Both the position numbers and the translations under genes were made by a program. Source: Membranipora membranacea (taxonomy: Eukaryota; Bryozoa; Gymnolaemata; Cheilostomatida; Membraniporidae). Taken from it: a DNA stretch of 64,000 bases. The notes beneath the pieces were generated by a model. It was not told the origin of the DNA, searched no databases, and saw only the letters and a program-made list of their open reading frames with translations. Positions 8,851 to 64,000 of this stretch are shown piece after piece; position 1 is the stretch's first letter; every line of letters starts with the position of its first letter. Where the stretch lies: assembly GCA_914767715.1 (NCBI GenBank), contig OU612071.1, positions 4,836,001 through 4,900,000 of the forward strand, given 5' to 3'.

Positions 8851-8925
8851 CATCGTGCTGACAAGCTGCTTGTGAAAATTTCTCTCTCTCTTGATTAAAA
8901 ATTGTAAATAATCACTGGATATCAT

Positions 8926-14516: not shown

Positions 14517-15295
14517 CAAATTTAGGACTGATGTTATGATTTATCAAAGTGATACATTGCTGACGAGGGCTTTGCAGAGAGGGCTACGATTTTATAGCCA
14601 TGCATTTTATGTATCTGTCTCCTGATCGAAACTTCGGACTCTGTTATTTCATCATTTTCATTTGCTGTCCAATAATTATCTCTCTAATATGAATATAATG
14701 CTGATGCAAAAATAACTAGACAACCTATGTTTGCACTTTCCCACCTCTTGTTTTAGTTTTTTGTACATGATCGAACTCCTTCACCCATTTCCTTGTTAAA
14801 ACTTAAATAGATATTTGAAATAGACAAAAGCCTATGTAGACTTGCATAATCCAGTACTCAGTTTTTAATTTATTTTGGCACCGAATTAATATTCACATTT
14901 TTTTGACTAAATATGTCATGAAAATAAAGACTTTCTGATCTTTATCTTTGGGTTGACCAAACTCAATTTTGATGTGAGCCAATAACTAGTTTCATGGTAT
15001 TTTGCTTGCAAGGAGTAAGATGGGGACGCTGTATATCGGTAGCAACACAAATGATGAAGTCATCAGCACCATCACAGGGATTGAAGAAATTTCCCGAAAT
15101 TGTCTCAAAAGATTTGGTTATACAATAAGTTCATATTCAGTAAATGATGCATGGCTGTTTCCGCTGGTGCCTGATCCAAGAAGCAAGTTATGTGCAACAG
15201 TGTTTAAGGTTTGTGTTGGTTAAAAAAAATAAGTTGGCTAACATTGCAAAAATCAGTCATGCCCCTTTTTCCAATGAATGGAACACGATATAGGG
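14517..15295. other. No gene recognised
   Basis: AT-rich. A 73-codon plus-strand frame at 15002-15223 has no start context or motif that I recognise. No repeat or RNA gene is visible. Confidence 0.45.
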
Positions 15296-19640: not shown

Positions 19641-22251
19641 TGGAGACAACCCTTGCGACTTTTATTCCACTAACCCACAATACAGTCATTATGTTATGCA
19701 ATGCTTTAGATTGACGCTACACATTAGGCACCACAAAATCCAAGCTATTCACTGTAATATCAGTAGTAACAGGCTACATTGAGGTGACACTAATTCAAAC
19801 CCTGAGTCTTCCTTTCTTTCCTTGACCTATTTTGTTTTATATAGCTTGTCCTTGATGAAAAGGAAGGGCTGAAGGTTGGAGGTCGTATTACAGAAAAGGA
19901 ACAAGGTTCCAATCGTGATGTCACAGATTATGTTATCTCAGGTTTAACTTTACAAGGTGAGAACTCACAATATTGATGAACATTTCCGGTGACAAAGCAG
20001 AGTCTTCACGTTGTAGATGACTCTTTGAGAGAACATGATTTTTAAATGGCGCTTTGAGACTCTGAAACATTCCATAGAAGCTGAATGCATGTCACATACA
20101 TTCGGCCTTAAGCTCCAACAACCCAACTATCATTTTTATGAACGAGCTCTATTTGCATCGTCATTTATGTACCTGCATATTTTTCTCCACTTTTAGACCT
20201 GAAAGCATTGCTGAAAGGGAATGATGGCAGAGATGGTATGTTATCTTCTATAACAAATTGTTTCTAACATAATTATTTCGCCTTTTTCACTCGTCTTGTC
20301 TTTTCGGTCATGTTGTTGGTTCAAATATGTGAAATATCACAATGTTTAATCTCTCAACACGATCCACACATAAAAATGTTCACTGTCTCACGGGCTTGCC
20401 AGGTGCAGAAGGAGTACAAGGTCCACCAGGTGAAAAAGGTGCACCTGGAGTATCTGGCCTGCCTGGAGAACCAGGATCATCTGCTTGTCATGGTGGTGGC
20501 TCCGTGTATACTCGGTGGGGCAGAAAGTCATCCCCAGGGAATTCTACCCTGATCTATGAAGGTAATCGGTTTTACGATTATTGAATATGCTTACTTTTTG
20601 AAAACATTTGCTCTGACAGTTACAGGATCAAGCAAGATAAACAATTGTCAGTTGCTAATGAGTTGTTGTTTTCTATCATGTTTAGCTCATATTCGTTCCA
20701 ATTCTGCTTCATTAGTGTCACTTCTTCTAAATGCATTCTGAGTTTGAGATTCCACTATTACACAGTGAATCCTGCCTGTAAACCAACCTTAAATCCTAGA
20801 AATTAACAGATTAAGCCACCAATGGTACATAAATTGATTCATTATATATCCATTGTGACTTGCCAGTTAAACCAAGTGCTAATGCAAGATGCCCATCTTG
20901 GACTAAGTGATTGCAAAACTCTATGGTATAAGTTACAATATTTCTATATGATATATGTCGCAGTGCCACTGTGTGATAGAACAAGGTTGGTAAAAGTTGC
21001 ACTGCCAATCAAAAACCTTACAAATAAAAAATGTGCCATGTCCATTCATGAACCATGAGTTACATAATACAGTGTTTCTTAGATGCATACAAGATGAGAT
21101 AATTGACCCAACTAAAACGGCCATTTGATACTCTGAATTACATTAGTTCATTCTTTTACCAGGATTTGCAGCTGGAGGACATTATGATAGTACAGGGGGA
21201 GGAACTAACTACCAATGTCTGCCTCTCAACCCAGACACAGATCGTTATCAACCTCCGAACGGCGGGTCTATCATAACAGGAGCTGAATATGTATCCAATC
21301 ACTTCGGTCCGTACCCGGAGGCTGCAACGTATCAGAATATACCCTGCGCGCGATGTTACTCAGCCCATTCTGCAATAATGATGTTACCAGCCAAGAAGAA
21401 CTGCCCTACCGGATGGAATATGGAGTATTTTGGTGAGCATTTTTGTTATCTTCATAATGCTTTCTGATCACTGAATCACACATATAGATATGTATAATAA
21501 TGAGTATCAGTAAATTCCTTTATGCAGTAATGAAACAGTGACACTAAGTTTCTGTTTAAACGAAAGTAAATCCTCTTTAACTTGGTCGAGATTTGTCCTT
21601 CCAGGATATTTGATGAGCGAGTTATCTACATATAAACATCAGGGCACTTATGAATGTGTTGACTCCAATCCGGAGTATGTACAAGGTCAGCAAATGGACA
21701 GGAGGAGCAAACCTCTTCTTTGTGAAGCCTGACTGTACAGGAGAGGGTACAATCGGTCATTGTCCCCCCTACAGAGCAGACAAGAAACTGCTCTGCGCTG
21801 TCTGCTCCAAGTAGACCAGTCTATAACAAGGCATTGGTATATCTTGTTGGAAAGACTCAGTCTCCTATCAACAGAGCATGTGTGTAAAGAATGCTGACGT
21901 AATATCGAAGTCATAATATAATATATAGTAATTGGCTTGGTTTTACAACAGTCTTCAGCTGATTACTTATTACAGAACATTGCGATTTAATTTGTATTTG
22001 AGAATCATCTAAATATATCATGACATATTATCTTAATATATCTCCATATATCATCTTAATATATAATGAGAATCATCTTAATATAAATAAAGAAGTAATT
22101 ATAAGTTCATAGTTGGCGCATCAGCAGCGGCTACAACTGAGTCTAAGCAATTCTTATGGCATGTGAAATTGCAAAAAGATCAATACCTCACTTAACAATG
22201 TGCAGAAAAAGGGACACAGAATATGTAAGTTCCAAAAACCAGTTTGACTAG

Positions 22252-22716
22252 TGACACAGTGATACAGTGACATATACCGGTGATACAGTGTCATATACCA
22301 GTGACGCAGTGAGATATACCAGTGATACAGTGACATATACCAGTGACACAGTGACATATACCAGTGACGCAGTGACATATACCAGTGACACAATTACATA
22401 TACCAGTGACGCAGTGACATATACCAGTGACGCAGTGACATATACCAGTGACACAGTGACATATACCAGTGACACAGTGACATATACCAGTCACACAGTG
22501 ACATATACCAGTGACGCAGTGACATATACCAGTGACACAGTGACATATACCAGTGACACAGTGACATACCAGTGATACAGTGACATATACCAGTGATGCA
22601 GTGACTTATACCAGTGACGCAGTGACATATACCAATGATACAGTGACATTTATACCATTGGCACAGTGAGATATACCAGTGATACAGTGACATATACCAG
22701 TGACGCAGTGACATAG
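22252..22716. repeat. 21-bp minisatellite, about 22 units
   Basis: Unit ACAGTGACATATACCAGTG plus two bases, with GAC, GAT and GCA variants. A period of 21 keeps several frames open on both strands (TYTSDTV on plus). The paralogous places at 52826-52890 and 54610-54675 have only about three units, so this array has expanded locally. Confidence 0.92.
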
Positions 22717-23098
22717 TATAGTGTCCCAGTGCAAAAGACTCTAATGTCACAATGACAAAGACCAGAAAAATGATATCAGTATTGAGGAAAAGAAAGCTAC
22801 ACAAATTGCAACATCAATGATGTAGCATCTGGTTTCAACAAGCTAGCCTCTGTTAGAATCAATTCCATTTCAATAATTCGGACCATTGACAAAGGAAAAT
22901 TGTACAGATTATGTAAGAACAAAGGTGAGTGTGATTGCAAAATACTGGTGATGGAAAAATGAAAAAAATATAAAGTGCGAAAAAACTTATTGCTTAGTTT
23001 GATTAGGTTCAGCAGTTCTCATTCAGACTTTTCAAAGTATTTATAGAGGTCATTCAGCTTCAGTGAATTGGCTACAGAATATTCCAGTAGCACAACTA

Positions 23099-23192
23099 CT
23101 AGCCTGTCTTGATAAGCTCTTTGGTGGAGGGGGGGTGCAACACAGCCATGCTGCGTTCCGCCGTACAGCAGAGCGTATCAAGACAGTCTAGA
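23099..23192. repeat. Foldback element (duplicate of 55109-55195)
   Basis: Arms CTAGCCTGTCTTGATAAGC and its near-complement TATCAAGACAGTCTAG enclose a G-rich loop. The paralogue at 55109-55195 has longer, better-matched arms and a run of C. Confidence 0.6.
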
Positions 23193-23238
23193 CAAACACA
23201 TATATAAGGATGAGCAAAAGAATAACGACTTTTAGACT

Positions 23239-24655
23239 TCAGTCATTTTCAGATTTAAGAAAAAAGCTATCATCTTTGCCCCGAATGGGAGCTGTGAGGG
23301 GTGACCTGATGGGCTCCCCTGTGGAGCGCAGGGATGGGAGAGTATATATTGATCTGTGGTGTGGATTCAAAAAGGCACCAGCCGGTAACTGTCTTGGATT
23401 CTGTTGATGAAGATGAACTGATGATGTAATCAAATCTTGTGAAAGCATATCAGGAAATGACATCAATCCCCGAGATGCTGCTGATGACATCATCATATTT
23501 TGTGTAGTCATCATCAAATTCTGTGTGGTCGGTAGATTGTGTTGTGAATTGGCACCCATCATCATAGAATTACTCTGCTGTGCTTGCATCATCACATTAT
23601 GTGATGATGTCATATCCAGAGGTGATGTCAGACCTAAAGGTAGTGGAGAATGTTGGTAGATGGGATTTATACCTGGTCCTATTGTCGGTGATTGGAGGTC
23701 ATAAATGGTGATGACCCAGAAATATCATCAAGGAAATTAAACTGCCAGTCGCTGGCTAACACCAAACTCTTAGACAGAGGCTCGGCTGTAAATAAGAATA
23801 TGAGATTGTGAGTGTAAGCTACTTACTAAATATCCCGTTCATTCAGACATTTAGACAGTGTGACCTCTGGGGGCACATTTATTACAATCTCCTAATTCCA
23901 ATATTTGGCCATAATTTTACCGTTTCACGGAATGCCATTGTTGCTTATTAATGTTGGTTATCAAAAGTAATTGAATTCCTTGATGCCATACTGTCTAGAC
24001 GGCAAAGGTAACAACAATGCAATGTTTACTGAGACCGCCAATCATAGCCAAGAGTGTTTTACTCACTATTATCAACAATGGGGTGTTAATGTGTTAAGTT
24101 AAGTGAAATGTTAAGTTTGGAACTGAGGCTACCTTGGTTGGCATCAGCAGAATGTACGCCCATGTTCTGATCCTTACCATGACTCTATAATAAAACAATA
24201 TGGAACTCAAATTTCATTCACGCAACATTAAAGCAATTTCCTTTTAACTTTTTGGAGATAGCCTATTTCATTTTAATAGCGGAGTGTTTTCTGAATAGTG
24301 ATGAGAAAAAAAACAGGAAAAGGAAAGAAGAAAGGTTAAGAATAAAGATAAGTTAAATTGGATATCCTTAAAAAGGTCATTTACATTTGAATTACCAAAC
24401 TTGATGACCATAACTTTAATCAATGTCTCCGTCATATTTCATTCAAATAAAAGTTATTGCAACTCTTGCTCAGCAAAAACCTGTTGATAGATAGATAACT
24501 CTCCAACATAGCATGCAGTGACAGACAGACCGACCGACTGACTGAGAGACAGAGAGACTTCACCTTACCTGGTGATGCTGTTGTGGATTGTTTAGAGAAG
24601 GGGCGTGGCCTCCGGGATCCATCTCAGAGGAGGCGTGGTCTCCTTGTCTCATCTC
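23239..24655 (-). pseudogene. Nuclear receptor 3' exons, dead duplicate
   Basis: The last exon (about 23780-23239) is readable as NLMMTTQNMMMSSAASRGLM and so on, very close to the live gene at 55244-55815. It has lost an 18-bp stretch and part of the SNTQH region and has a frame-breaking insertion near 23700. The short upstream exon (complement of about 24133-24184, SHGK-type) and part of the QGDHASSEMDPGG exon (to about 24650) follow at the expected spacing. Everything upstream, including the ligand-binding domain, is missing. Confidence 0.85.
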
Positions 24656-24660
24656 ACTAA

Positions 24661-35906: not shown

Positions 35907-36057
35907 TGGTGTCAGATGTAAACTAGAATTAGAGAGGATTGGTATGAGAGTTGAAATTAGAGAAGGAAAAGAGAGTTGAAAGGATTTGAATTTGGCAGAG
36001 TGTGACGTCATCGGTAAAATTTGGCAGGGTTGCCGGTAACTCCTTAGTATTAAAGCA

Positions 36058-36999
36058 ATGGAAGGAAAATTTGGAAAGGGTATTGAGACACCAATGTTTA
36101 TCATTGAGCAAGGAGCTGAGTTAGAGTGCTGGAGAAAGTTCATAAAGAGGTTTGAGATAGCAGTAATTGGAGTGGGAATCAGGTACAAAGAGTGTGATGG
36201 AGTCAAAACAAAGAGATGCGCCAGTACCGAACGTCAACTAATTTTAGAGATTGAGCAGAGAAATGCGACTCTGCTAGTTGATAGTATGGGGGAATACGGC
36301 ATGAACATTTTTGAGACATGGCGCATAGAAGTGGAAGCCATGCAATACGAAAGGCTGAAAACCGCGTTCGATGAGCATTTTGCAACCCGAGAGAATATAG
36401 TGGCAACGCGACATAGGTTCTTAGGGATGGAACAAAAAAGCGAGGAGAGGTTAGATAAATTTATCGAGAGAGTAGAAAGGAGAGGAAGTACTTGTCGATG
36501 GGGAGGATTAGAAGAAGGGATGAACGTTCAGGTAGTGATAAAAGGCATGCATGTGGATAAGATAAGAAATGAGTTGCTATTGATGAAAGACCTGACATTA
36601 CAAAAAGTAAAGGAGACTTGCAACAGGTACGAGTCAGCAAGAGCAGCTTCTAAGATCCTACAAAGAACCGAGCCAAAACCCATATCAGAAGTGCACGAAG
36701 TAGCGGAGAAACATTCAGGCGACTATAGTCAGGAGGAAGAACAGGAAAACATAGATAGAGTTGGAGCAAGCAATTATGGCAGTAGTTCCAACTCGGGATT
36801 TAGAGGTCGAGGATATGGGAGAGGGCGAGGCAGAGGAAGAGGAAGAGGCTGCTACACGGTGGAGGATTTGCACATGACTATAAGGAATGTAGAGATAAGA
36901 AAGAGAGAGAAATGGGAGCGAAAAGTAGAAACACAAACTTTAAGTGCTACGTTTGTGGAGACACCAGCCATCTAGCGAAATTCTGCCCAAGCCGATTCG
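36058..36999 (+). pseudogene. LTR element gag, frameshifted in the zinc knuckles
   Basis: The ATG at 36058 opens 305 codons: an N-terminal capsid-like helical region (ELECWRKFIKRFEI ... QKSEERLDKFIERVERRG), then a glycine/arginine-rich tail (GRGYGRGRGRGRGRG). The two CCHC knuckles expected next lie out of frame. The first has lost its second Cys through a small deletion near 36860. The second, CYVCGDTSHLAKFC at about 36942-36983, is complete but sits in another frame. Role in the family: packaging of element RNA. Confidence 0.85.
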
Positions 37000-37112
37000 G
37001 ACAAAAAGACCCGAGCAAAGGCAAAGTTAATGCAGTGACAGGGTATTCGAGCGAATCAGAGGAATCATTATGACTACAAGGGAGGTGGAAAAGCGAGGAT
37101 TTCACAATAAGA

Positions 37113-37457
37113 TTGAGAGTCAACAAGAAAATGGTTAAGTTTATAGTCGACACAGGAGCTGACGTCACTGTGATTACACCAGAGACAGCAAATAGGCTGG
37201 GGTTACAGAGGAAATCAACGAAGAGAGAGTTCAGAGGAGCCGACGGTAATAAGCTTGATATAAAATTCAGGACACATATTCCCCTATTGTCAGAACGGGG
37301 ACAAGCAGTTAGAGGAAGGGCTCACATCTTGGAAGGAGCCCAAAACAACCTTTTAGGCAAACCAGAAATAAGTAAATTAGAGTTTGTAAAGACAGTACGG
37401 AGCATTAGCAGCGGGGACATTGAAACAAGACATCCGAAACTCTTCGGTAAACTTTGA
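37113..37457 (+). pseudogene. LTR element protease domain
   Basis: An aspartic-protease core, FIVDTGADVTVITPETANRL, with the catalytic DTG intact, followed by a flap-like region and a stop at 37455-37457 just before the RT region. In active elements this would be one domain of a longer pol polyprotein. Confidence 0.85.
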
Positions 37458-39123
37458 TTTTTGCCGGATGTTTTCAAAATCAATGTGAAAGAGGGAGCGA
37501 AGCCGTTATGTCTTAATGTCCCTAGGAAACTACCGATTGGCTTGAGACTGGCCACACAAGACGAATTAGAGAGGATGGAAAGCTTAGGAGTAATTGAAAA
37601 AGTAGAAAAACCAACTACTTGATGTTTAGGGATAGTGGTAGCACCGAAGTCGAGCGGAAAAGTTAGGATCTGCGTAGATCTCTCAGAACTCAATAAGAGT
37701 GTCAAGCGAGAGACATTTTCTTTTGCCCAATATAGAAGATACTTTATCGTCGTTGGCAGGGAGCCAGTACTTTAGCAAAATGGACGCCAACTCAGGGTTT
37801 TGGCAGGTTAGATTAGAGGAGGAATCAAGGGAATACACAATCTTTATCACCCCTTTTGGCAGATACCAATATAGGAAAATGCCTTTTGGTATATCAGCAG
37901 CCCCAGAATTCTTTCAGCGACAGATGAATAAGATTCTGGGAGGGATGGAAGGAGTAGTCTGTATGATTGACGATATATTAGTAGTAGGGAAGAACAGAGA
38001 AGAGCAGGATAAAAGGCTTTGGGAGGTACTTTTAAAGATAGAAAGGGCAGGTATGACCTTAAATAAGTCCAAGTGTGAATTTGGCGTTAAGGAAGTGAAG
38101 TTCTTGGGGCACATACTCAGCACGAAGGGGATAAGTGTGGACCCCGAGAAAGAGAGAGCAATTAAAGAGATGCCACCCCCAACAGACAGAAAAAGTCTCC
38201 AAAGACTTTTGGCAATGGTCGATTATTTGAGTAGGTACAGTCCCCAGTTGTCTGAAGCAGAAGTGGCCCTCAGAGATCTGGACAGACAGAAAAATGAATG
38301 GATTTGGCTGGAAACTCATCAGAGAAGTTTTGAATTAGTTAAGGACTTGATAACGCCTTCTCTGCTATTGGCCCTGTTCGACTATAATAAGGAGCATAGG
38401 GTGACAGCGGACGCTAGCTGCCATACACTAGGTGCAGCATTACTACAAAACCAAGGTAATGGAGAATGGAGACCAGTGGCATATGCGTCACGAAAACTGA
38501 CAGATGCAGAGAGGATATACGGGCAAATTGAGAAAGAGGCATTAGCAATCACATGGGCATGTGGAAAGTTTGATTTCTATTTGGTGGGAAAGCGGTTTAA
38601 GATAGAAATGGACCATACACCATTGATACTAGGATCCAAGGACCTCTCAGAGCTTCCCTTGAGAATCCAGAGGTTTAAAATGAGGTTGATGAGATACTGC
38701 TACGACATTTTCCATACGCCCTGGATTAAGATGTTTATAGCAGATCTCTGGTCAAGGCCACCAACCAAAGATGAAGCAGTTAAAATATCACAGGTGGAGA
38801 TGTATATACAGAGCCTACGATCAACCGAGGAAGATAATCTTATTGAGGAGATACAGGTCGAAAGCGTATTAGATAAGGAGTATCAGGATACTGTCAAATT
38901 TATAAGAGAAGGGTGGCCCGGTGAATTGAAAGGGGAAATGAGGCAAGTTAAGGGTAGTGCAGACCTATTAAGCGAGAAAAACGGCATGGTGATGATGAAT
39001 AATCGGTTATACATTCCAAAGAAGACGAGAACTCAAATGTTGGGAAGGTTGCATTTTGGGGCACAAAGGCATAGTAAAAACATACCACAGAAGCCAGGAT
39101 TCAATCTGGTGGCCCACCATTAG
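37458..39123 (+). pseudogene. LTR element reverse transcriptase and RNase H
   Basis: The RT N-terminal part (37458-37700) carries a TGA where a Trp is usual (about 37620) and a frameshift near 37710. From 37699 a 474-codon frame follows: FSKMDANSGFWQV (first catalytic Asp), TPFGRYQYRKMPFG, and MIDDILVVG (catalytic Asp pair; the usual Tyr is Met). The RNase H domain has TADASCHTLGAAL, EKEALAITWACGKFDFYL and MDHTPL. The end (YIPKKTRTQMLGRLHFGAQRH) is the start of an integrase zinc-finger region, which then breaks off. Confidence 0.9.
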
Positions 39124-48515: not shown

Positions 48516-49889
48516 GGTAGCCTTTAATAATGTCAACGTGACCAAGTTTTTCTGTTTGATGTTAATATCAGATAAGATAATATTTTCGAAATTAGTGCTG
48601 ATCATACGAAGGCATCAATGTAGAGAAAAGTGGTAGGACAACTACAATGCTGTAGTTCACAGCTATATGCTGAGGCGCAATCAAATGACTCACTGCTCTA
48701 TCTGCCTTTCATAGTACCAGGCTGCAGTGTGGCTGACAATGAGGTTACGCTCATTCAAACCCAAAGTGAAGCCTTAGTCTACCCCTCTCCCCTTGACCTG
48801 TTTTACTGATTTACTTTGTTTTTTTCAAGCTTGTCCTTGATGAAAAGGAAGGGCTGAAGGTTGGAGGTCGTATTGCAGAAAAGGAACAAGGTTCCAACCG
48901 AGATGTCACAGATTATGTCATCTCAGGTTTAACTTTACAAGGTGAGAATTGATGCCCGTTTCTGGCATCATGAGTTTTTCCTGTTTAGACCATATGATGT
49001 TTAAATGGCACCTCTCAGCTCTGAAGTATTTCCTCGAAGCCGAATGTATGCCACATACAATCAAACTCAAACAAACCAAATATCATTTTCATGAACGAGC
49101 TTCATTTGCATCATGACTCCTATAAAGGCGTATTTTTCTCCTCTTTTAGATCTGAAAGCGCTACTGAGAGGGCATGATGGGAGAGATGGTAGGTTAACTT
49201 CTATAACAGAATGTTTCTAACAGAATTGATTTCACTTTTTCATTTTTTTTGTTGTCTTTTCAGTCATTCTGTTGGTCCAAATATGTGAGCAAACACAGTG
49301 TTGAATCTTCAGCTATCAACAAGATCCATGCATAATAATGTTCCACTGTCTTGTAGGCCTGCCAGGTGCTGCAGGAGTAGAAGGTCCACCCGGTGAAAAA
49401 GGTGCACCTGGAGTATCCGGACTGCATGGAGAACCAGGATCATCTGGTGGTCATGGAAGTGGCTCTGTGTATACACGGTGGGGCAGAAAATCATGCCAAG
49501 GGAATTCTACCCTGATCTATGAAGGTAATTATTTTTATATTCATTGGGCATGCCTACTTTCTATAAACATATTAGCTCTGACCGATACAGGGTTTAAGTA
49601 AAATGAAACAAATGTTAGTAGCTTATGAGTAGTTGTTTTATAACATTTATGTCACTGCTTCCCAAAGAAATAGTAAAACAATGAGGAAAATCTTTGATCT
49701 GATTACAAAACCTGACGATATTAGTAATGGTAGTATTAGTAATTTGTAATGATATTTCTGTATGTCATATGTCCCAGTGACCTGCAATTTGTTTGAGATG
49801 GTTGTTTAAGATAATGTTTTAAGTAGCGACAAATTTTTTAATCATAGGTACTTTTGTTTCCGACTACAACATAGTATTCATGAGATGCA

Positions 49890-49982
49890 ATAGACTCTTC
49901 TACCTTAAAACCTCAAAGCATTAAAATATTAATCAATTTTTTTAATTTTAATGCTTTGAAGTTTTAAAGTAGAAGAGTCTAT
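49890..49982. repeat. 93-bp foldback hairpin
   Basis: ATAGACTCTTCTACCTTAAA is mirrored by TTTAAAGTAGAAGAGTCTAT; arms are about 38 bp with two or three mismatches and an AT-rich loop. It lies in the intron before copy D's cysteine-rich exon. Confidence 0.85.
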
Positions 49983-50918
49983 CACTTGACAACATTTGAC
50001 ATCACTAAGGCCGTTTTCTTCCCAGATTCTTCTGTAGATTATGTAGATAATGAGATGATTATGACTTGAGTGTTCCATCTTGGTTGAAAGTAGTTGTGAA
50101 TGTGATGCCAATAAAAACCTCACAATATCATGATCCATTATTTGGAGAAATTGAATGTGTTCAAATGTTACTTTAACCTTTCATGAATCATGAGCTACAT
50201 TATACTTCATTTCTTGTTGCATATGAGATAAGATAATTAACCCAGAAGGTCATTTGAGACTCTGAATAATAGTAGTTTATTCTTTTAACAGGATTTGCAG
50301 CTGGGGGACATTATGCCAGTACAGGGGGAGGAACTAACTACCAATGTCTGCCTCTTGACCCAGACACAGATTGTTATAGACCTCCACACGGTGGGTCTAT
50401 CATAACGGGAGCTGAATGTGTATCCCGAGACTTCGGTCCGTACCCACAGGCAGCAGCATTCCAAAATATACCCTGCGCGCGATGCTTCTCAGCCCATTCT
50501 GCACTGATGATGCTACCAGCCAAGAAGAGCTGCCCTTCTGGATGGAATATAGAGTATTACGGTCAGTATAAGTTTATGGTCAACAAATATTCATTAGTAT
50601 TTTCGAAGCAATAAGAGCCGAGCAACTCAACTTAATCATGTTTTATTGGTCTCAATTTAAAGGGGTCTAAACATTCTTTATTCTTATAGGATATCTTATG
50701 AGTGAAGCTATATCAGAACTATAATCACCAAGGAACCTATGAATGTGTGGATATTAATCCAGAGTATGTACAAGGTCAAGGTACAAGGTCAACAACAAAC
50801 ATCTTTGGGAGCACTATTTCACTTTGTGAAGCCTGACTGTTCAGGAGATGGTACAATCGGTCATTGTCCCCCCTACAGAGGAGATAAAAAACTGCTCTGT
50901 GCTGTCTGCTCAAAGTAA

Positions 50919-51511
50919 ACCTGTTTATAACAATTAATTGGTATAAGTTGTTGGGAACACTCAGTCTTCTGTCATGGAGCATGTGTGTAAAGAATGCTGA
51001 CGTAATATCATAATATAATAATTGGCCTGGTTTTACAACAACCAATTATCTCAATATATTTCAAATATCAGATTAATCCCCATTTCTTTGTGTGAATTGT
51101 GAACAGCTATCAAACCTTACACTACTGCTGCCACTTAGGCAAATGTTTTCTTATTAAATCCTGTAAAGCTCAAAACTAACGAAATGAGGGTGCAATATTA
51201 TGCGCAATTAATTTGCACAGACTGATCGTCATAATCAGGGTATGACAGAAACCATCTAGCGTACATAGTGACATAGTTACCGTCTTACTAGTAGAAAATA
51301 ATGACGTCATCGCCGAGTGAGTTAGTTTTATAAACTGATTTTGACAATCAGTTAATTAGTAAGTTTTGCGCTATACAGAATTCAAAGAGCACATATTACT
51401 CTGAGTGGCAGCAGTAGTTCAATAATGATCTATCAATGATTTAAAACTTAAAACTGAAATTTACTACCAATAAAGAATTACAAAAAATTGTATGTTATCT
51501 CTCTGTGTGAT
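50919..51511. other. 3' flank of copy D, no gene
   Basis: The first roughly 130 bp match the 3' flank of copy B (GCATGTGTGTAAAGAATGCTGACGTAATATC within it), probably 3' UTR. The rest is unique AT-rich sequence. Confidence 0.5.
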
Positions 51512-53433
51512 AAAAATTGATGTGGAGGTATGTCGAGTGTTTATCCAAAACAATAACTAGTTGACTGTATTATCTAATTTAGACATAATTATCCCCGTCT
51601 GATTACAATACAGCAAAATCAATCATCACGAATAAAAATAACAGCAATAGACATCAATTTCCAATATATATATATATATACACATATATTGTCCCTTTTT
51701 ACGTCATCCATTAAATCGAAATAGCATTAGGTTTTGTCATATGATTACATTATTAGTCAGTTGAATTTTATCTTGGCATTTGTTAGTTGTACCTAGGTTA
51801 GCAAGCGAGCGATAACGGCAAAATACAAAATGAACAGGAAGCAGATAAAAGCATAAAAGAGCTAGCCAGCATAGTGCTCACCAACATAACAACTGCACCC
51901 TGGTGCAGATGTTTGGTGCAGAAGGATTGGGGGCAGTTCTGTGGGGGGGGGGGGGGGGCATATGAATAATCACAGCAGGGGGATGATTTACCTGGACAGC
52001 ACAAGATACGGAAATAAGGCTGTAAAGCGACGCTGCCCATTTTCTTAACCACAAGACACTAAAACAATATTACCTTTTAAATGGAGCTTTCCAAGCTTCC
52101 ATATCAAAAACTTCAATTTGGTGCTAGAATAGCTAAATCTAGACAACTCAGATTATATTTTACCGATTCAAAAAAGGCAAACACATTTAAATCCTTGATC
52201 CACCATGAGCGATAAGATATCACGAAGTGAGGGAATGGAAGCTTATCTGCCTTTGAAGACAACGATATGATTCAAGGCCATTTCCTTCATGTAACCCGTA
52301 TGATCAAAATACAAAGATAGCAATTTGACTCCCCAGAAAAAGCAAGGATATTCTTTCAATGAAAAGCATTTATCGTCAATATCATTTTCAATAGGAGGTA
52401 TATCTAATATAATTGTATTCACGTGAATTGATTGCTTCCACAAAAGGAGTTAAAGACTGCTTGCTTGCTTGCTTCCACCTCACACAAATAATTTGAAGAA
52501 TTGAGAGTTGATATCAATATGTTCTCCATATGGATTTTATGGTTTTTTGGTGCCACTTTCACATGTGATATTTTATTAACACACCGTTTTCAGCTGATTA
52601 CTTATTGCAAAACATTGCTATTTCATTTGTATAAAACTATATTTTATTTGAGAATCAACTTAATTATAGAATTAATAATTAGTTAATAGTTGGCGCATCA
52701 GTAGCGGCTACAACTGAGTCTAATCAATTTTTATGGCATGTGAAATTGCATAAAGATAAACACCTCACTATTAACAATGTGCAGAAAAGGGACACATAAT
52801 ATGTAAGTGCCAAAAACCAGTTTGACTAGTGACACAGTGACATATACCAGTGACGCAGTGACATATACCAGTGACGCAGTGACATTGACAATCGTCACTG
52901 TGACATAGTATAGTGTCCCAGTGAAAAAGACACTAACGTCACAATGACAAAGACCAGAAAAATGATATCAGTATTGAGGGAAAGACAGTTACACAAATTA
53001 TGTAGCTTCGGGTTACAACCGGCGAGCTTCGGTTAGAATCAACGTCATTTCTATCATTCGGACCATCGACAAAAGAAAATTGTACAGATTATGTAAGAAT
53101 GTGCATGTGATTGCAAAATACTGGTGAGGGAAAAAGGAAAAAAAAATGAATTACGAAAGAACTTATTGCTTAGTTTGATTAGGTTCAGCAGTTTTCATTC
53201 AGACTTTTCAAAGTAATAATAATAGAGGTCATTCGGCTTCAGTAAATTTGCTACAGAACGTCTCTTTGGTTACACAAATACAAATAAAAATTGATGTGGA
53301 GGTTTGTCGAGTGTTTATCCAAAACAATAACTAGTTTACTGTATTATCTAATTTAGACCTGATTATTCCTGTCTGATTGCAATACAGCAAAATCAATCAG
53401 CACGAATAAAAATAACAGCAATAGACATCAATT

Positions 53434-53478
<45 letters not shown>

Positions 53479-55109
53479 TTGTCCCTTTTTACGTCATCCA
53501 TTAAATCGAAATAGCATTAGGTTTTGTTATATGATTACATTATTAGTCAGTTGAATTTTATCTTGGCAGTTGTTAGTTGTACTTTGGTTAGCAAGCGAGC
53601 GATAACGGCAAAATACAAAATGAACAGGAAGCAGATAAAGGCATAATAGAGCAAGCCAGCTTAGTGCTCAACAAAACAACTGTACTCTGGTGCAGATGTT
53701 TGGTGCAGAAGGATTGGGGACAGTTCTGTGGGGGGGGGCATATGAATAATCACAGCAGGGGGACGACGTACCTGGACAGCACAAGATACGGAAATAAGGC
53801 TGTAAAGCGAGGCTGCCTGTTTTCTTAACCACAAGACACTAAAACAATATTACCTTTTAAATGGAGCTTTCCAAGCTTCCATATCAAAAACTTCAATTTG
53901 GTGCTAGAATAGCTAAATCTAGACAACTCAGATTATATTTTACTGATTCAAAAAAGGCAAACACATTTAAATCCTTGATCCACCATGAGCGATAAGATAT
54001 CACGAAGTGAGGGAATGGAAGCTTATCTGCCTTTGAAGACAGCTATATGATTCATGGCCATTTCCTTTATGTAACCCGTATGATCAAAATACAAAGATAG
54101 CAATTTGACTCCCCAGAAAAAGCAAGGATATTCTTTCAATGAAAAGCATTTATCGTCAATATCATTTTCAATAGGAGGTATATCTAATATAATTGTATTC
54201 ACGTGAATTGATTGCTTCCACAAAAGGAGTTAAAGACTGCTTGCTTGCTTGCTTGCTTCCACCTCACACAAATAATTTGAAGAATTGAGAGTTGATATCA
54301 ATATGTTCTCCATATGGATTTTATGGTTTTTTGGTGCCACTTTCACATGTGATATTTTATTAACACACCGTTTTCAGCTGATTACTTATTGCAAAACATT
54401 GCTATTTCATTTGTATAAAACTATATTTTATTTGAGAATCAACTTAATTATAGAATTAATAATTAGTTAATAGTTGGCGCATCAGTAGCGGCTACAACTG
54501 AGTCTAATCAATTTTTATGGCATGTGAAATTGCATAAAGATAAACACCTCACTATTAACAATGTGCAGAAAAGGGACACATAATATGTAAGTGCCAAAAA
54601 CCAGTTTGACTAGTGACACAGTGACATATACCAGTGACGCAGTGACATATACCAGTGACGCAGTGACATTGACAATCGTCACCGTGACATAGTATAGTGT
54701 CCCAGTGAAAAAGACACTAACGTCACAATGACAAAGACCAGAAAAATGATATCAGTATTGAGGGAAAGACAGTTACAGAAATTATGTAGCTTCGGGTTAC
54801 AACCGGCGAGCTTCGGGTTACAACCGGCGAGCTTCGGGTTACAACCGGCGAGCTTCGGTTAGAATCAATGTCATTTCTCTCATTCGGACCATTGACAAAA
54901 GAAAATTGTACAGATTATGTAAGAATGTGCATGTGATTGCAAAATACTGGTGAGGGAAAAAGGAAAAAAAATATGAATTACGAAAAAACTTATTGCTTAG
55001 TTTGATTAGGTTCAGCAGTTTTCATTCAGACTTTTCAAAGTAATAATAATAGAGGTCATTCGGCTTCAGTAAATTTGCTACAGAACGTCTCTTTGGTTAC
55101 ACAAATACT
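51512..55109. repeat. Tandem direct duplication, two units of about 1.8 kb
   Basis: Unit 1 (about 51512-53281) and unit 2 (about 53285-55109) are nearly identical, sharing AAAAATTGATGTGGAGG at the start and ACAGAACGTCTCTTTGGTTACACAAATAC at the end. Differences include TA-repeat length (51666-51681 versus 53439-53472), the G-run (about 14 at 51944, about 8 at 53731) and a GGGTTACAACCGGCGAGCTTC unit present once in unit 1 and three times in unit 2 (54795-54855). Matching small frames occur in both (52443-52243 and 54223-54023, minus; 52501-52686 and 54285-54470, plus), but the motifs are not recognised. The second half of each unit also matches 21945-23090. Confidence 0.92.
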
Positions 55110-55195
55110 AGCCTATCTTGACAAGCTTTGTTGTGGGGTGTTGTGTCTCCCCCCCCCCCCCCCTACAGCACAACAAAGCTTATCAAGACAGGCTA
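55109..55195. repeat. Foldback element with C-run loop
   Basis: Arms AGCCTATCTTGACAAGCTTT and AAAGCTTATCAAGACAGGCT, with about 14 C in the loop. It lies just downstream of the nuclear receptor's last exon. Duplicate at 23099-23192. Confidence 0.8.
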
Positions 55196-55243
55196 CACAA
55201 ATACATTCATGAGGATGAGCAAAAAAATAGTGTCTTTTAAACT

Positions 55244-58200
55244 TCAGTCATTTTCAGACTTAAGAAAAAAGCTATCATCTTTGCCCCTGGTAGGGGCTGT
55301 GAGGGGTGACCTGATAGGCTCCCCTGTGGAGGGCAGGGTTGGGGGAGTGAATATCGGTCTGTGGTATGGATTCAAAAAGGCACCAGCCGGTAACAGTCGT
55401 GGATTTTGTTGATGAAGGTGAACTGACGATGTAATCAAATCTTGTGAAAGCATATCAGGAAATGACATCAATCCCTGAGATGCTGCTGATGACATCATCA
55501 TATTTTGTGTAGTCATCATCAAATTTTGTGTGGTCGGTAGATTGTGTTGTGAATTGGCACCCATCATCATAGTATTACTCTGTTGTGTTTGCATCATCAG
55601 ATTATGTGATGATGTCATATCCAGAGGTGATGTCAGACCTGAAGGTAGTGATGTCATCAGTTCTTGTGGAGAATGTTGGGTGTTAGAGTAGATGGGATTT
55701 ATACCTGGTTCTATTGTCGGTGATTGGAGGTCAGATGGCGATGACCCAGAAATATCATCAAGAAAATTAAACTGCCAGTCGCTGGCTAACACCAAACTCT
55801 TAGACAGTGGCTCGGCTGTAAATAAGAATAACCATGAGATTGTGAGTGTAAGCTTCTTACTAAATATCCCTTTCATTCAGACATTTAGACAGTGTGACCT
55901 CTGGGCGCACATTGATTACACTCTCCTAATTCCAATATTTGGCCATAATTTTACCGTTTTACAGAATGTCATTGCTGCTCATTAATGTTGGTAATCAAAA
56001 GCCGAATAATTGAATTCCTTGATGCCGTACTCTCTATGCGGTAAAGGTAACAACAATGCAATGTTTACTGAGACCGCCAATCATAGCCAAGAGCGTTGTA
56101 CTCACTATTATCAACAACGGGGGAAAGACGGTCTCCGAATGACACCCCGTAACATGTGTTAAGTTTGGAACTGAGGCTACCTTGGTTTGTATCAGCAGAA
56201 TGTACGCCCATGTTCTGAACCTTGCCATGACTCTATAATAAAACAAAATGGAACTCAAATTTTATTCATTCAACATTCAAGCAATTTCTTTTTAACTTTA
56301 TTTCAATAGCGGAATATTTTCTGAATGGTGATGAGAAAAAAACAGGAAAAGGAAAGAAGAAAGATAAGTTAAATTTGATATCCTTAAAAAGGTCATTTAC
56401 ATTTGAATTACCAAACTTGATAACTATAACTCTACTCAATGAATTATTTTCAGTCTCCGTCATGTTTCATTCAAATAAAAGTTAGTGCAACTCTTGCTCA
56501 GCACAAAAACCTGTTGATAGATAGATAACTCTCCACCATAGCATGCAGTGACAGACAGACCGACCGACTGACTGAGAGACAGAGAGTCTTCACTTTACCT
56601 GGTGATGCTGTTGTGGATTGTTTTGAGGAGGGGCGTGGCCTCCGGGATCCATCTCAGAGGAGGCGTGGTCTCCTTGTCTCATCTCACTAGGGGGCAGAAC
56701 GTTATGATCTCTGGATCGAGCCACTGCTGCTGACATCAGTTTCTGATAAATAATAAAAATATCATCATATAAGACATAGAGATTATGACGTGTCATGAGG
56801 CCCTCCAAGAAGAATTTTAAATTTTGCAGTTTATCCATCATTATACATTGGAACTATTCATAATAATAATATTTGAAGGAAATCCAAGTGTCACAATATG
56901 GGCTAGTACTGCTTACAAGAGAATTACTACATTTCCATCAGAAATCATGAATATGATGATGTAGACATCAGTTGTTTATAAGGTGATAACACACTGCTGA
57001 GATGAGTTTCTGACAAATCTCCTGTAAGGAGCGCGCACCCTTACACCTCAATTAAGGTAGAAAACATTGCTTAGCCTTGGACATACAACGAGAGGGAGGA
57101 CAATTCCAAATGAGAAGATGATTCTAAATGATGAGGGCATTTTTAATGAGAGGTAATTTCTAAATGAGAGCACAACATTAACACTGTTTATACTTCTAAT
57201 CACTCGGGAGTACACAGTGGTATAAACAACACTTACATTGATACACTCTGAGCTTTCCAATATTTGAGCAATCTTAGATTTCTTCCAGTGTCTAACAGAA
57301 TGGCGTGAGGTTGAAGGTGTGACAGTGTCACCCGTCTCCTGAGTTGTTGATGCTGCAGGGATCTTAGGCTGGAAAAAAGCAAAACAACGTTTTAAAATTT
57401 CAATATTGCTTCTGAGAAAAGACACCAAAGCTTAGATTTGCATCTGAATATTCAAGTGAGAGACTCGTTTAGGTCGTTCAACTGTTAAACAAACAGTAGA
57501 TCCCAATGAAACATTCTGGTAATTTACCAAAGTACACAATCCAAGAGATAAAGTGTTCAAACAAAGTTATTTCGAGAGTGAAATGTTTTAATTGTATTTT
57601 AAAGAACTATTTGTGGCCAATGCTTAGGCTCTGATTCGCCCACCAATCTGCCAATCAGAGCCAATACATTGACTAGACTATAAATAAACGTGAACAGTTT
57701 GGTCCATTAGAGACTGAAAAGCATTCTACACATATTTTTAAAAACCAATATAGTAAGCGTTTAGAAGGATAGAGAGGGTTAAATCACACAAACGTATATT
57801 TGCTACAACAGAAACCTTTAACTTCTGCTGCCACTCAGGGAAATTAACTGTCCATTGACTTATTGGACAAATTTTCTGCAGAAACTGATCACAAAAATCA
57901 GTGATGATGTCATTGTTCCAACTATTAAAACTTAGGTAAAAGTCATATTTCACCTAGTTCATTGAATTTATTCCCTGATTTTGATAACTGAATTGTGTAA
58001 TATATATGCCCAATAGGTGAAAATTCTGAGATCAAAGCCTCAACTGGATATCTTTGACCTATACAATTTCAATTTACAGTGCGCATTTCCCTTTGTGGCA
58101 GCAGTTGTTTAAACAGAGAGTATTATCCCCGATGCACTTTTGGTCAGCAAGCACCCAAGGGTGGTGGTTTAACAGGGAGTGGCTTGAACGTATTACTTTC

Positions 58201-61200
58201 ATCAAGGGCTCATCAAAGGGTTATCATAGAGGTTTATCAGAGGTTTCTTAGAGGTGTTTCAGAGGGATTTGGGCAGCTATTATTTCCGTACCGTGATGCG
58301 AGGTATAATTCTGACTTTAAAGTCAACTCTCATAATTTCGCTGAACAGTATTGGAAAGTTGTAATAGTCAGCCCAGATTTCCTGAATCTCAGCTGATATA
58401 TGCTTGTGGGTGTGGTCTAGCTCCCGCATCTCTGGAGGTTGGAAATTCATGCAAAATGACAAGGTTAGAAGTTAAATGTGCACAAAACAACTATACAAGA
58501 AGCTAGAACAGTAACATAAACATTGTGCCACTTGTCTGTGTTAATAAGCTTGAGAGATAGAAATAATAGAAAGAGTGATTAAAAAAGAGGACCAGTCCAG
58601 TAAACCTTTAATTAAGTACAGCCATCCCATTGTTTCTGAGCAGACCAAACAATACCCATGGTATATAGCAAAACATATCCTTAAAGACAACCCAGGCTCG
58701 TAGAGTAGTGACGCCAAGATGATAGAACCAGTTTGAATTCAGCCAATTAGGTCACTCATAAATATTCATTTAGGAAACACTGACATGTGATAGAAGACAG
58801 CTCAGGAGTAAGTGATCATACTATTTATTCACATCTGAGTCATCTCTAGTTTGAGTAAGGGTAAGAGGAAATGGTTTAGGACGGCCACAAACTGAGTGTT
58901 GATGTAAATCAGGTTCTATCCAATCAGCCTGCATTTCAGATCACTTCCATTCTACTGGTACACAGCTGGTGGGAACTTGGAGTGCATGCAAATTAGATCA
59001 AACTTGATTCAGTGTTGATGGCGGTGTGAGTTGAAGCATAGTGACGCCTACGGAGTAAATAACTTAAAGTGAAAGTGTTCATGATTAACAGCAGGTGTGA
59101 GGTAAGCAGGTTATCACTACAAACAGATAGAAGCAAAGCGTCACACGGAAACTCAAACGGATAGGTAGAGAGAGAGGAGAGAAGACAACAACGTCGTCAG
59201 TCAGCTGACAAAATGGTGGATCGTACCGACATGCGAGGAAAGATTCGCCTCTTGCCGTCAAAGTTAGCGAGGATGATTTCCTCGAAGAGAGGAGGAAAGC
59301 AGTAGTACTTCTCCCATATCTTACACAGCTGGCTCACCAGTCGGGCGTGGTACATATCCGCTACCCGCATCTCTTATAAATTATAACAATATACGAGGGA
59401 GATAAGTCAAAGTAAAATGGTTTTGTAACAGATGTGGGGGAGATAACTGAGATCAGAGTTAGCCATGACACGCGGCTCACTGATGTTTTTTGTTGGCCTT
59501 GGACTATTAATTTTGGTATCAAAAGTTAGCTTTTACTTTTTATCAGCCACAAATTTGAACGTTGATTATTCTTTATTTCAATTTCAAAGAAATCAACTTT
59601 TCTGTTGGTCCATAATAAGACTTCCAATTGGCTGCGTGACAACGCTAATTCAGACTATTTATGTATATTTCAATATTGGTCTCTTCACAGAACTCAGACA
59701 AATGGCACAAAGGACACATTTTTATATTGAAGGTCATTTAAAGGTTGGCTGAAAAGAGATAGCAGCTCTGCTCAGGCCATAAATATGACATTATATTATA
59801 CAAGAAACACCAGGGCAGCCAATGAATGATGTATTTTGTATTGCAAATTAATAATGGCAGTTGAAAAATAGGTATAAAAATGTCAGAGTCAACTTCCTCT
59901 GCCCCTTTTTAGCAAGACTTTAAGTATGTTTCAATGATGATAAAATAATATCAAAGCGAGCTTGTCATGCACAACTAGGCGAGGCATGACCTTAAATCAG
60001 CTGAGAAAACGAATATCTGCCATCCTGATTTATCCCAGAATGCTCTGTAGTAACGTATCAAGGTATCACCAAGATTTGATGTAGAATCTGTCATGGTTAC
60101 TCCCAGAATGCATCGTAGTGCAATATCAATGTTACTCCCATATGTAGTCCCATAACAATGTACCACCCAGAATGCATTGTTGAACCATAACAATTTTATT
60201 TCCAGAATACATTGGAGTACAATAACAATGTTACTCCCAGAATTAGGATTAGGAGATGAGTTAGACATACCTTCACATGTTTGATGTATCCTGATTGCGA
60301 GCTCCGGATCGTCAGGATGATTCAACTTCAGATAGAACTCTAAAATCCTCAGCTGCTGATTGTGCATAATCTTCAGCTGTTTACGAGCCGAGGGAGACAA
60401 CTGCGAATAAATCTCCTCCGCTGTAATCATATTTTATATATTATATACACAAATAAATCTTAATATCAACCCATTTAATATCTCCATAGATACCATTACC
60501 ATAATATGTCATCATGCATTATTTAAACAATGATGAGTTTATTTATATAGCGCTTAACGTTTTCCACATGCATAACTCCTGAGCGGTTGACGCAACATAT
60601 CAACATCATATATCATAAGGACCAACTTTATTGATATTGACCAATCAAATATATCCATAGATACCATTGAGATCATTTGTACCAAAGGGACTTTTTTTTT
60701 TAAATGAGGGTTTGGCGACAGTCAGGAAAAAATAACAGCTACTTATCTACTATCTTGTAATGTGAAGGCAATACTTGTCAGTGCACATAACAGAATAAAG
60801 GTAAACTGTGTGCGGCTTATTCTTATAGAAGACAAAAGTGATTGTGTCTGTTGCTGTAAAAAATCAATCGTAAGAGCGGTTAAATTAATAAATTGGGAGT
60901 TGTCTTCTACAAAGGCAAGGTGAGATAATTACAAACACAATTTGATTTTCATTGTTATGACCATTATTTTTATCATAAATGACTCACATGGATGAGTCAT
61001 GATAAGGGTGAGGACGAGTAACCACTCAATATCAGTCAGTCTGATCTTCATAAATTTCCCAGCCAGATCAATCATCATATCCACAAACAGCTTGTTGTTG
61101 TAAATCTACAATATATACAAATTGACAACAATATTTTTGATGAAATCTGGAAGCTCTGCCATTTTCAAGAGTATGCCAAATAATTCTACCATGCTGGTAA

Positions 61201-64000
61201 CCACGATAGAGTTATATAAATTAAATATAAACACACACCACACACCTTGTAATAATAATACAAATAACCTACACATTATCTCAGTCGTTCTTATTTTAAG
61301 AACTAATGACAACATTTTTCGTGAATTTTCTGTTGTATTCTATTGCTAACTATAAGTCAAAGGACATAGGAATTGTGACACATGATTTGTGTTAGGTGAA
61401 AGGACTCGCAATTAAATATATATCGTTCTCACCTTGACAATATCTTGATAGCTCTCCACTCTGTTAAACCTTCCGATGAAGCAGCGATGCTTTGTGTCAA
61501 ACCTCTTATGTGAGGCTGTGAACAACAGCTGCGATCTGGTGGCTAAAAGAGATCAAACCATAATAATATAAAAAAACTAGTCTGATAATCGTCTGGCATG
61601 CAAACTAGACTAGTATTGTTTTTTGAGTAGAACAGAAATAGTATGAATTTAAATAAATCTAAACATTATTGCTCCTTACAATAAGAATGCAAGATGACGG
61701 AAATATTGTGCTCACAGACCAAAAAGGCTATCAAAGGTTGAAATGGCAGTGTATTCTGGGAATGTGGTATGCTTTTAAAATTAGGATTTGCCTCCCTTTG
61801 GAAGTAGTTTACGCATAGCCGTTGCCCGATTGACCATGTAATGGCATTAAATGCTTATATTTGGTACTGAATACCCATTTCTTAATTAAAAAGAACAAAG
61901 AATAGACATTTACTGGGGTAAACGCTCACAGCCACGACATCACATCTTTTATGGATGTATAGCTCAGTATGTAGACCTAATACAAGGCCTCTAGTTTATT
62001 CAGCTGTCTCTGGAAAACCACATAGCCCAGTAGACTTACTCCTTGGTTCATTATGACTAAATACTAGTGAAACTACAACTACTAACTAGTGATTTTTGTA
62101 ACCAGCACTGCTGGTTGATGCGAATTATAATTAAAGCCTTCTTACCACAGAACTATCAGTGTCCCTGAGTGCGCCCTACAGGTGACTGAATATGGGACTA
62201 TTTAGACAACACCCCTTACAATTCTTGGTTGCATTCTAAACCACAGATTCTCACTAAATTCAAGCATTAGCATTGTCTCGCCTCTACATGCTTTCTTTTA
62301 CTAGTACAAATAACATGGTGTCAATGTTGTCTAACCAAGGTGATGGGGGTGTGGGGTTTTGTCTGGGCCAGTCATCAAATGCGTACAGCTTTTTAATCAG
62401 AAATTTATGTGTCACCTCAATAAGGGTGGAGTAACAAGCAAGGGATAGAAATAAGAGCCATTCCCGTCAAACTCGTAATTAGCTACCACCGTCAAGAGGG
62501 GGAGCAACTCTAAATGCAGACATATGATTTGAAGTTCTGATCAATCCTACCTTAGAGCTACAGCCTTATAAAAAGAAACAATGGTAATTCAAGTCATTTG
62601 CTCCTCAGCACTTTGATTGGTTGAATTTTAACCAGTGCAAACTGGTTTCAAAAATAACTTACTATCTATCTATTTAGTAGACTGTCAATGTAAGCTTGTT
62701 ACTACTACTCCTTGCATGTCTGGGCCAATTTAAGAATCCAGACAATGAGCTAACATGGTAATCGTCCCTCGTTTAACTCATCAACAGAGCTTGTAACTTG
62801 TACTTAGTGTGATATACTTTAGGGACACTTATCACCTTATGAAGGCTCGACAAAAGTTACTATTCCAGCATACGCAATAATTTAATATCCAATATCATAC
62901 TTTCTAGTGCAATACTCAGATGTCCATGTCCTCTATGTTGGGTTGACAGCTTTCAAAGGGAGACAACTCTTAATATCATATGATTTTTACACTCCCAGAA
63001 TGCAATGTCGTTTAGAATTACAACCTGCTTGTAATTTTACATATTTGCATGTAAATTTAAATATTTATAATTTTAGATGTATGAAATTTTACATGATACC
63101 TGAAGATTTAAATTTGTAAATTGTAGATTGAAGCTGAGCTTTTACCATCACCTACCTTTGATTAGTGTGATCTGATCATCCAGTGAGAGGCTTTTAAAGC
63201 CTGGAGTGCATTTAGCAAACTGAGCTACAACTATGAATGTTTCTTCTATTCCTTCTGCCCTGCAATCAGTTATAAGTGAATAACACATAAGTGGGTGACT
63301 CTGTAACTATCTAGCGTTCAGTATTGCAGAGCAACATGATCATATTTTTTCAAGAGAGAGAATTGCCCGGTTTGATGTGAAGGTTTCAGGAAACTTCATT
63401 TACTTGAAACTAGATTTTAATGTGGTCATGATTATCTACACATTAAATAGATCAATGAGGATCGATTTGGAGAAAACCAGTGACGCTTAAGGCAAATTAA
63501 GCTATAATTAAGAGTTGTCTCCTCCCAGTCAAACTTTACAGAGAGGACAAGATCTCATAATAACATTTACATACTTATTCAATAGGTTGTATTTGACCGA
63601 AAGAAAAAATCTTATTGTCACACAGGTTAACTCCCCTCTTTTTTTGTAGGGGAGGTAACCTCCGCTACAATAAGATATTGAAGATTTCATCCTCATCGTC
63701 CTCACTTTCATAGCAGCATATTTTGCTCTAATCGCCAAGACAGGAGTAGTGGAACTTCGGATTTACGAATTTAATCTGGGCATAGTTCAGCAATCAATCA
63801 TGTGAAAGCCAGTATAGCGACATTCACTTGATTGGGTCAACAGCTGTTGTCAATCTCAACGCAAATTCTGAATCAAATTTTGGCGTTGTAGAACTTATTG
63901 TTTTCATAGTAGTCTCTGGTTTCAGACCATGATTTTATACAAACCAATGTTGGATAAGTTCCCGCCTCTGATCCAAGTCTAGACCTGTCTCTGCCATGAC
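55244..64000 (-). CDS. Nuclear receptor: ligand-binding domain and long C-terminal extension (5' part off window)
   Basis: Exons, in transcript order: beyond 64000 to 63945, 63259-63156, 61542-61433, 61105-60988, 60420-60271, then one of 59372-59227 or 58431-58292, then 57368-57237, 56742-56599, 56232-56181 and 55815-55244 (stop 55246-55244). All boundaries are GT/AG and phases agree. The ligand-domain signature is FIVVAQFAKCTPGFKSLSLD followed by DQITLIK (helices 3-5), matching the family pattern 'F...ipgF..L..dDQi.LLK'. Helices 7-10 follow (DIEWLLVLTLIM; ARKQLKIMHNQQLRILEFYL) and the AF-2 helix. The DNA-binding domain must lie to the right. After AF-2 there are about 299 more residues rich in Ser, Gln, Asn and Met (MMMGANSQHNLPTT, TTQNMMMSSAAS), far longer than a usual F domain. 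It is a ligand-responsive transcription factor by family; ligand and subfamily are not determinable here. Confidence 0.88.
58292..58431 (-). other. Receptor alternative exon 6b (helix 11 / AF-2 version b)
   Basis: 140 nt, same entry (CAG|AG-ATGCGG) and exit (before GTACGG) as exon 6a, and clearly homologous: EMRELDHTHKHISAEIQEIW, then ADYYNFPILFSEIMRVDF. LFSEIM is its AF-2 motif. It is two codons shorter than 6a. Without splicing it stops after VRK. Confidence 0.85.
59227..59372 (-). other. Receptor alternative exon 6a (helix 11 / AF-2 version a)
   Basis: 146 nt, entering at phase 1 with AG-ATGCGG and leaving at phase 0 before GTACGA. It encodes EMRVADMYHARLVSQLCKIW, then EKYYCFPPLFEEIILANF and a basic tail. 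LFEEII fits the AF-2 pattern (two hydrophobics, any, Glu, two hydrophobics). If the donor is not used, the frame runs ten codons further to TGA (59203-59201), giving a short isoform without the C-terminal extension. Confidence 0.85.
60090..60245. repeat. Diverged short tandem repeat in receptor intron
   Basis: The phrase TACTCCCAGAATGCAT, followed some 20 bases later by CAATAACAATGT-like text, recurs about three times at roughly 50-65-bp spacing. It lies just after exon 60420-60271. No function is suggested. Confidence 0.5.
61543..63155. other. Receptor intron, nothing else recognised
   Basis: AT-rich intron sequence. The short frame at 62907-63119 has no motif. No transposon ends were identified. 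Confidence 0.5.

Follow-up and report, generated by a model that had tools for sequence, protein, structure and literature searches.

Exons 6a and 6b of a nuclear-receptor gene in the bryozoan Membranipora membranacea: a likely mutually exclusive pair at the helix 11-12 end of the ligand-binding domain

Mutually exclusive exons that arose by tandem duplication are well known (SNAP25, Dscam, Mhc). In the available sections of a human survey, a frame shift leading to decay is among the ways in which such exons stay separated (PMC5740500). Among nuclear receptors, the available sections of two other articles describe splicing at the end of the ligand-binding domain (LBD). In TR-alpha-2 (THRA), the LBD end is altered from the ninth heptad, helix 12 included, and activity is changed; helix 12 and its activation function 2 (AF-2) are lost, 120 residues of exon 10 replace 40 and hormone is not bound (PMC9266318). 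GR-alpha and GR-beta (NR3C1) are identical up to the LBD end and then carry different sequences for helices 11-12; GR-beta is produced by alternative splice sites and has 15 non-homologous residues without helix 12 (PMC8036319). Here we analyse a window of 64,000 nucleotides of Membranipora membranacea (contig OU612071.1, positions 4,836,001 to 4,900,000). One minus-strand nuclear-receptor gene, truncated at the window edge (position 64000), contains two homologous exons, 6a and 6b, that encode alternative versions of the helix 11-12 region. We consider it rather probable from the sequence that these are tandem-duplicated mutually exclusive exons of an NR1-type receptor gene, each transcript taking 6a or 6b, which would give two receptors.

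This locus resembles the two described receptors in part. As with TR-alpha-1 and TR-alpha-2, splicing would change the LBD end including helix 12, but the alternative end of TR-alpha-2, in the sections available, is no duplicated homologous exon and helix 12 is gone, whereas 6a and 6b both keep AF-2. As with GR-alpha and GR-beta, an alternative helix 11-12 sequence follows a shared part; the same article, however, attributes GR-beta to alternative splice sites and not to tandem homologous exons. The inactive-variant type of TR-alpha-2 and GR-beta is therefore not matched, the 6a and 6b forms both keeping AF-2 and a common tail. With the tandem mutually exclusive exons of the survey sections, the pair has in common adjacency, homology, identical phase, a length not divisible by three and, as predicted here, one exon per transcript, with the difference that the swap hits the activation helix of a receptor. 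The terms "nuclear receptor", "hormone receptor" and "ligand-binding domain" are absent from the available main text of PMC5740500 and PMC9741552, the search being confined to these terms and to the main text. The open-access literature listed, which leaves most subscription journals outside its scope, contains no nuclear receptor with two intact tandem-duplicated helix-12 exons. An earlier note on this DNA knew of no described nuclear receptor regulated by swapping this helix with tandem-duplicated exons, and that literature agrees; the swap of helix 12 by splicing as such is known from TR-alpha-2 and GR-beta. What was not found in the open-access literature listed is the combination of a spliced LBD end with tandem homologous exons that both keep AF-2. 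The bryozoan nuclear-receptor papers among those listed do not deal with this gene, judging by their titles and the start of their abstracts.

Exons 6a (146 nt) and 6b (140 nt) are both of length 3n+2 with equal entry and exit phases; they have the first bases AGATGCGGG in common and their donors are GTACGA and GTACGG, respectively. Their products are identical at 21 of 47 residues, and a tblastn search with 6a recovers 6b within the window at E = 1.6e-9, a value that rules out chance resemblance. In the window, a profile made of 6a, 6b and the corresponding segment of a Watersipora protein detected no third copy, the best further match having E = 0.15; its matches to 6a and 6b themselves follow from its construction, both being built in. 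Splicing with neither exon leads to ...EA* and with both to ...MSRCGS*, while 6a alone or 6b alone gives an open frame without internal stop. The earlier statement that the frame forces a choice is borne out, and the coordinates, phases, first bases and donors proposed for the two exons were all correct when re-derived from the sequence. Two known marks of tandem mutually exclusive exons are present: the copies are adjacent, homologous and of the same phases, and a stop results from both or neither. However, once an exon of a length not divisible by three is duplicated in tandem, the frame is enforced automatically, so the frame logic is not independent evidence of regulation; it fits mutually exclusive use and does not prove it. 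6a and 6b are likely to be a mutually exclusive exon pair.

The coding exons of the gene are as follows, in the order of transcription, with identities to the Watersipora protein P0001.

63945..64000, minus strand: edge-truncated exon VMAETGLDLDQRRELIQHW, similar to P0001 just ahead of AEGIEE; in-frame join to the next exon
63156..63259, minus strand: exon for LBD helices 3-4, AEGIEETFIVVAQFAKCTPGFKSLSLDDQITLIK; 31/34 identical, aligns with the YAK...LLK segment of PPARg
61433..61542, minus strand: mid-LBD exon; 32/37 identical
60988..61105, minus strand: mid-LBD exon; 29/39 identical
60271..60420, minus strand: constitutive exon 5, LBD through the first part of helix 10; 29/45 identical (aligned part), last base is the first of the next codon
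59227..59372, minus strand: exon 6a, end of helix 10/11, helix 12 with LFEEII and post-helix-12 extension; 22/47 identical
58292..58431, minus strand: exon 6b, same segment as 6a with LFSEIM instead; 27/47 identical (P0001 424-470)
57237..57368, minus strand: shared downstream exon 7 (PKIPAAS...); 18/42 identical
56599..56742, minus strand: tail exon 8; 15/20 identical over the first 20 residues
56106..56232, minus strand: tail exon 9; 18/24 identical over the last 24 residues
55244..55815, minus strand: last coding exon, ending in ...RGKDDSFFLKSEND*, from the joined reading frame; relative P0002

Read from position 64000, the joined frame has a single terminal stop and comprises 553 codons with 6a or 551 with 6b, stop counted. 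The common C-terminal tail is of 324 residues in our splice model and not of 299, as had been given before. The Pfam family Hormone_recep (PF00104) matches the 6a form with 46.2 bits and the 6b form with 47.2 bits (cut-off 23.5; the query contained one mistyped residue), and an LBD fold with helix 10/11 and helix 12 was found. Among solved structures, PPAR-gamma and LXR-alpha come closest in sequence. Among proteins, the best relative is P0001, annotated as "vitamin D3 receptor B-like" in Watersipora subatra (58% identity, covering 66% of the query). It contains the two-zinc DNA-binding domain (PF00105), which here would lie past the window edge. Exon by exon through the LBD, identity to this protein drops from 31/34 to 29/45, and it is 27/47 in 6b and 22/47 in 6a. 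With the Watersipora protein as query, 161 relatives were found, of which the best 120 are listed; the named ones among the matches listed are mostly from molluscs, with some from brachiopods, annelids and nemerteans. As their names are spread over VDR, RAR, PPAR, ROR, Rev-erb (NR1D) and similar, the gene is called NR1-like, with no finer class. An NCBIfam scan of P0001 and P0007 gave no match and is uninformative, that library being built for bacteria and archaea.

The codons of 6a and 6b differ at 21, 16 and 28 of 46 first, second and third positions, respectively. Nonsynonymous (dN) and synonymous (dS) divergences by NG86 are 0.57 and 2.12, and the ratio dN/dS of about 0.27 is rough, since dS approaches saturation and 47 codons are compared. 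Neutral evolution was simulated from the 6b protein as the ancestral state, with rates set equal and indels disallowed: among runs matched on the observed third-position divergence, 10 of 17,867 were as intact as 6a. A simpler neutral test let pass 1,553, 578, 160, 5 and 0 of 5,000 runs at 0.25, 0.4, 0.5, 0.75 and 1.0 substitutions per site, respectively; because 1,553 runs pass at 0.25, the inference of selection requires an old duplication. With its open frame, its kept helix-11 His and AF-2 Glu, this dN/dS and the 10 of 17,867 runs, exon 6a does not look like decaying junk. The two copies both show signs of past selection; the exon pair is real and probably functional.

The splice sites were scored with a human weight table: the donors score 3.8 (6a) and 5.7 (6b), against 7.0-10.7 for seven other exons and 2.1 for the edge exon. 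The donors of 6a and 6b are thus the second and third weakest of ten. The argument that weak donors indicate a regulated choice is soft, because the presumably constitutive edge exon has a weaker one, and the same score of 2.1 equally weakens the argument from a weak donor against 6a. These below-average donors would also suit a gene in which 6a is mainly a dosage switch, both exons being used and weak or double inclusion yielding degraded, stop-bearing mRNA that tunes the amount of receptor and not its kind; the stops of the both-in and both-out products do precede several later junctions. Nevertheless, such a switch leaves the kept AF-2 and helix-11 key residues of 6a unexplained, and we hold it to be very improbable. 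Nothing clear was found for docking-selector RNA pairing among the three intron pairs around 6a and 6b when compared with shuffles. Intron 5 with the 6a-6b intron reaches -264.1 (20 shuffles: mean -250.5, standard deviation 6.6, lowest -264.5); for the intron after 6b, pairing is no better than in shuffles, whether with intron 5 (-267.1 vs a shuffle mean of -265.5) or with the 6a-6b intron (-245.9 vs -257.0). An imperfect 35-bp tandem repeat lies at 60152-60243, within the intron upstream of 6a.

Besides the limits given above for dN/dS, for the age of the duplication and for the donors, several observations weigh against the production of two receptors. The acceptor of 6a is the non-consensus AAG and is the second weakest of ten, that of exon 5 being weaker. 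The protein branch of 6a is long (0.91, with 0.20 for 6b and 0.24 for Watersipora), which fits relaxed constraint equally with new function. In Watersipora, the single listed protein has the 6b-type segment, a situation compatible with a 6a exon being present or absent there. No 6a-type protein was found in the protein collection by a search that needed three shared 5-residue words, nor was any further 6a-type end seen in the alignment of 120 proteins (the best of the 161 relatives, P0002 omitted) with the two window isoforms, where the exon-6 region is almost or wholly missing from P0104, P0118 and P0119, and the Lingula entries P0006 and P0008 end alike. Exon 6a may therefore be lineage-specific or seldom used. 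These observations would also be expected if 6a were a relic, that is an old, once-used duplicate now poorly spliced and disappearing, the gene making essentially the 6b receptor: the weak donor and the AAG acceptor, the long branch and the lack of a 6a relative all go in this direction. Such a fate is unlikely given that the frame of 6a is open, its length 3n+2 and its AG/GT borders are intact, R, His (helix 11), W, YY, F-P, LF-E-I and RI-PR are kept, and the dN/dS and the neutral runs are those reported above. Concerning the order of events, all three tree orders of the duplication and the Watersipora split are allowed (approximately unbiased test on 20 of the 122 aligned rows, p = 0.22, 0.22 and 0.78). 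Among residues common to only two of the three segments, 10 are found in 6b and Watersipora, 5 in 6a and Watersipora and 4 in 6a and 6b.

The lysines of the FAK and LIK motifs of the receptor align with those of PPARg, which are part of the coactivator clamp. The AF-2 pattern (hydrophobic-hydrophobic-x-Glu-hydrophobic-hydrophobic, as stated in the available sections of PMC9266318) is kept in both exons, as LFEEII in 6a and LFSEIM in 6b, and both cores contain the charge-clamp Glu. Together with the Hormone_recep match, these intact patterns support what the earlier note had described, a nuclear-receptor LBD with two helix-11/AF-2 exons. Identity between 6a and 6b is lowest, at 7/20, over the final turns of helix 10/11. 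With the clamp Glu kept in both and helix 10/11 the most divergent, a change in the ligand pocket or at the dimer interface is no less likely than one in the coactivator groove. The reading as an AF-2 switch is consequently only partly supported: there are two intact homologous helix 11-12 segments, but the predicted coactivator clamp is kept in both and it is helix 10/11 that differs most. Past helix 12, 3 of the 122 aligned rows have the motif F...RI-I/F-PR (P0001 461-468): 6a, 6b and Watersipora. The Watersipora protein, for which one isoform is listed, resembles this gene in its 6b-type segment and in its RI-PR motif. Five residues or fewer follow helix 12 in 80 of the 119 other relatives, and the extension may be bryozoan-specific.

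Under mutually exclusive splicing, 6a and 6b would compete for the same neighbouring exons, one being included per transcript, and products with both or neither, which stop several exons early, would be removed by nonsense-mediated decay. The below-average donors could let tissue factors bias the choice. The two receptors would have the same upstream domain parts and the same long C-terminal tail, and would differ at the end of helix 10/11, in the helix 11-12 loop, at the edges of helix 12 and in the post-helix-12 segment. The 6b form would be the standard one and 6a a more diverged, selected variant with a working AF-2, which would still dock coactivators and might alter ligand fit or the pocket wall, the helix 11-12 loop, dimerisation or co-regulator preference. 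It is conceivable, although we put this forward tentatively and with some doubt, that the activation helix can be exchanged as a cassette, with two intact helix 11-12 modules that serve different ligands, partners or co-regulators according to zooid or stage. If both forms are made, a hormone response would have evolved by exon duplication inside the activation helix, and not by gene duplication or helix loss. The gene would then provide a natural receptor pair whose sole difference is some 47-49 residues around helices 11-12, informative on the role of these helices, and would add to the knowledge of bryozoan hormone signalling.

The last three exons of the gene are present a second time, in part, at 23242-24658 of the window; this stretch has a stop in the exon 9 copy and no exons 6 or 7, and is probably a truncated gene copy. 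This partial second tail copy and a 1.8-kb tandem duplication adjoining the gene could suggest an assembly or annotation artefact, one exon of another gene copy having been wrongly joined. We find this scarcely credible: 6a and 6b follow one another in a single window, with the same exons on either side of the pair, parts of exons 8-10 are all that the partial copy has and the profile search gave no other exon 6 in the window, and 26 of 47 residues differ, far beyond a haplotype difference. A collapsed second gene copy as the source of one exon, which the earlier note would have taken as a refutation, is not supported because the partial copy is without exon 6.

Downstream of the gene, a segmental direct duplication relates 22824-24659 to 54830-56689 (1.9-kb block, 86% DNA identity) and, as a further part, 19828-22312 to 48812-52882. 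The adjacent 1.8-kb direct duplication (51510-53281 and 53284-55108, 94% identical) is just beyond the stop codon of the gene. Next to the partial gene copy is a tandem array (22257-22731) whose offsets are about 21 bp; related units occur around 52.8 and 54.6 kb. A short broken match to the last exon, on the opposite strand (15048-15140, plus strand), covers 31 residues at 52% and includes a stop. Finally, two elements were recognized by eye on the plus strand: a LINE-like element (long interspersed nuclear element; 8908-12886) with endonuclease-like and reverse-transcriptase-like open frames, overlapping near 12000, and a Gypsy-like retroelement (36040-39123) with gag-like and pol-like open frames.
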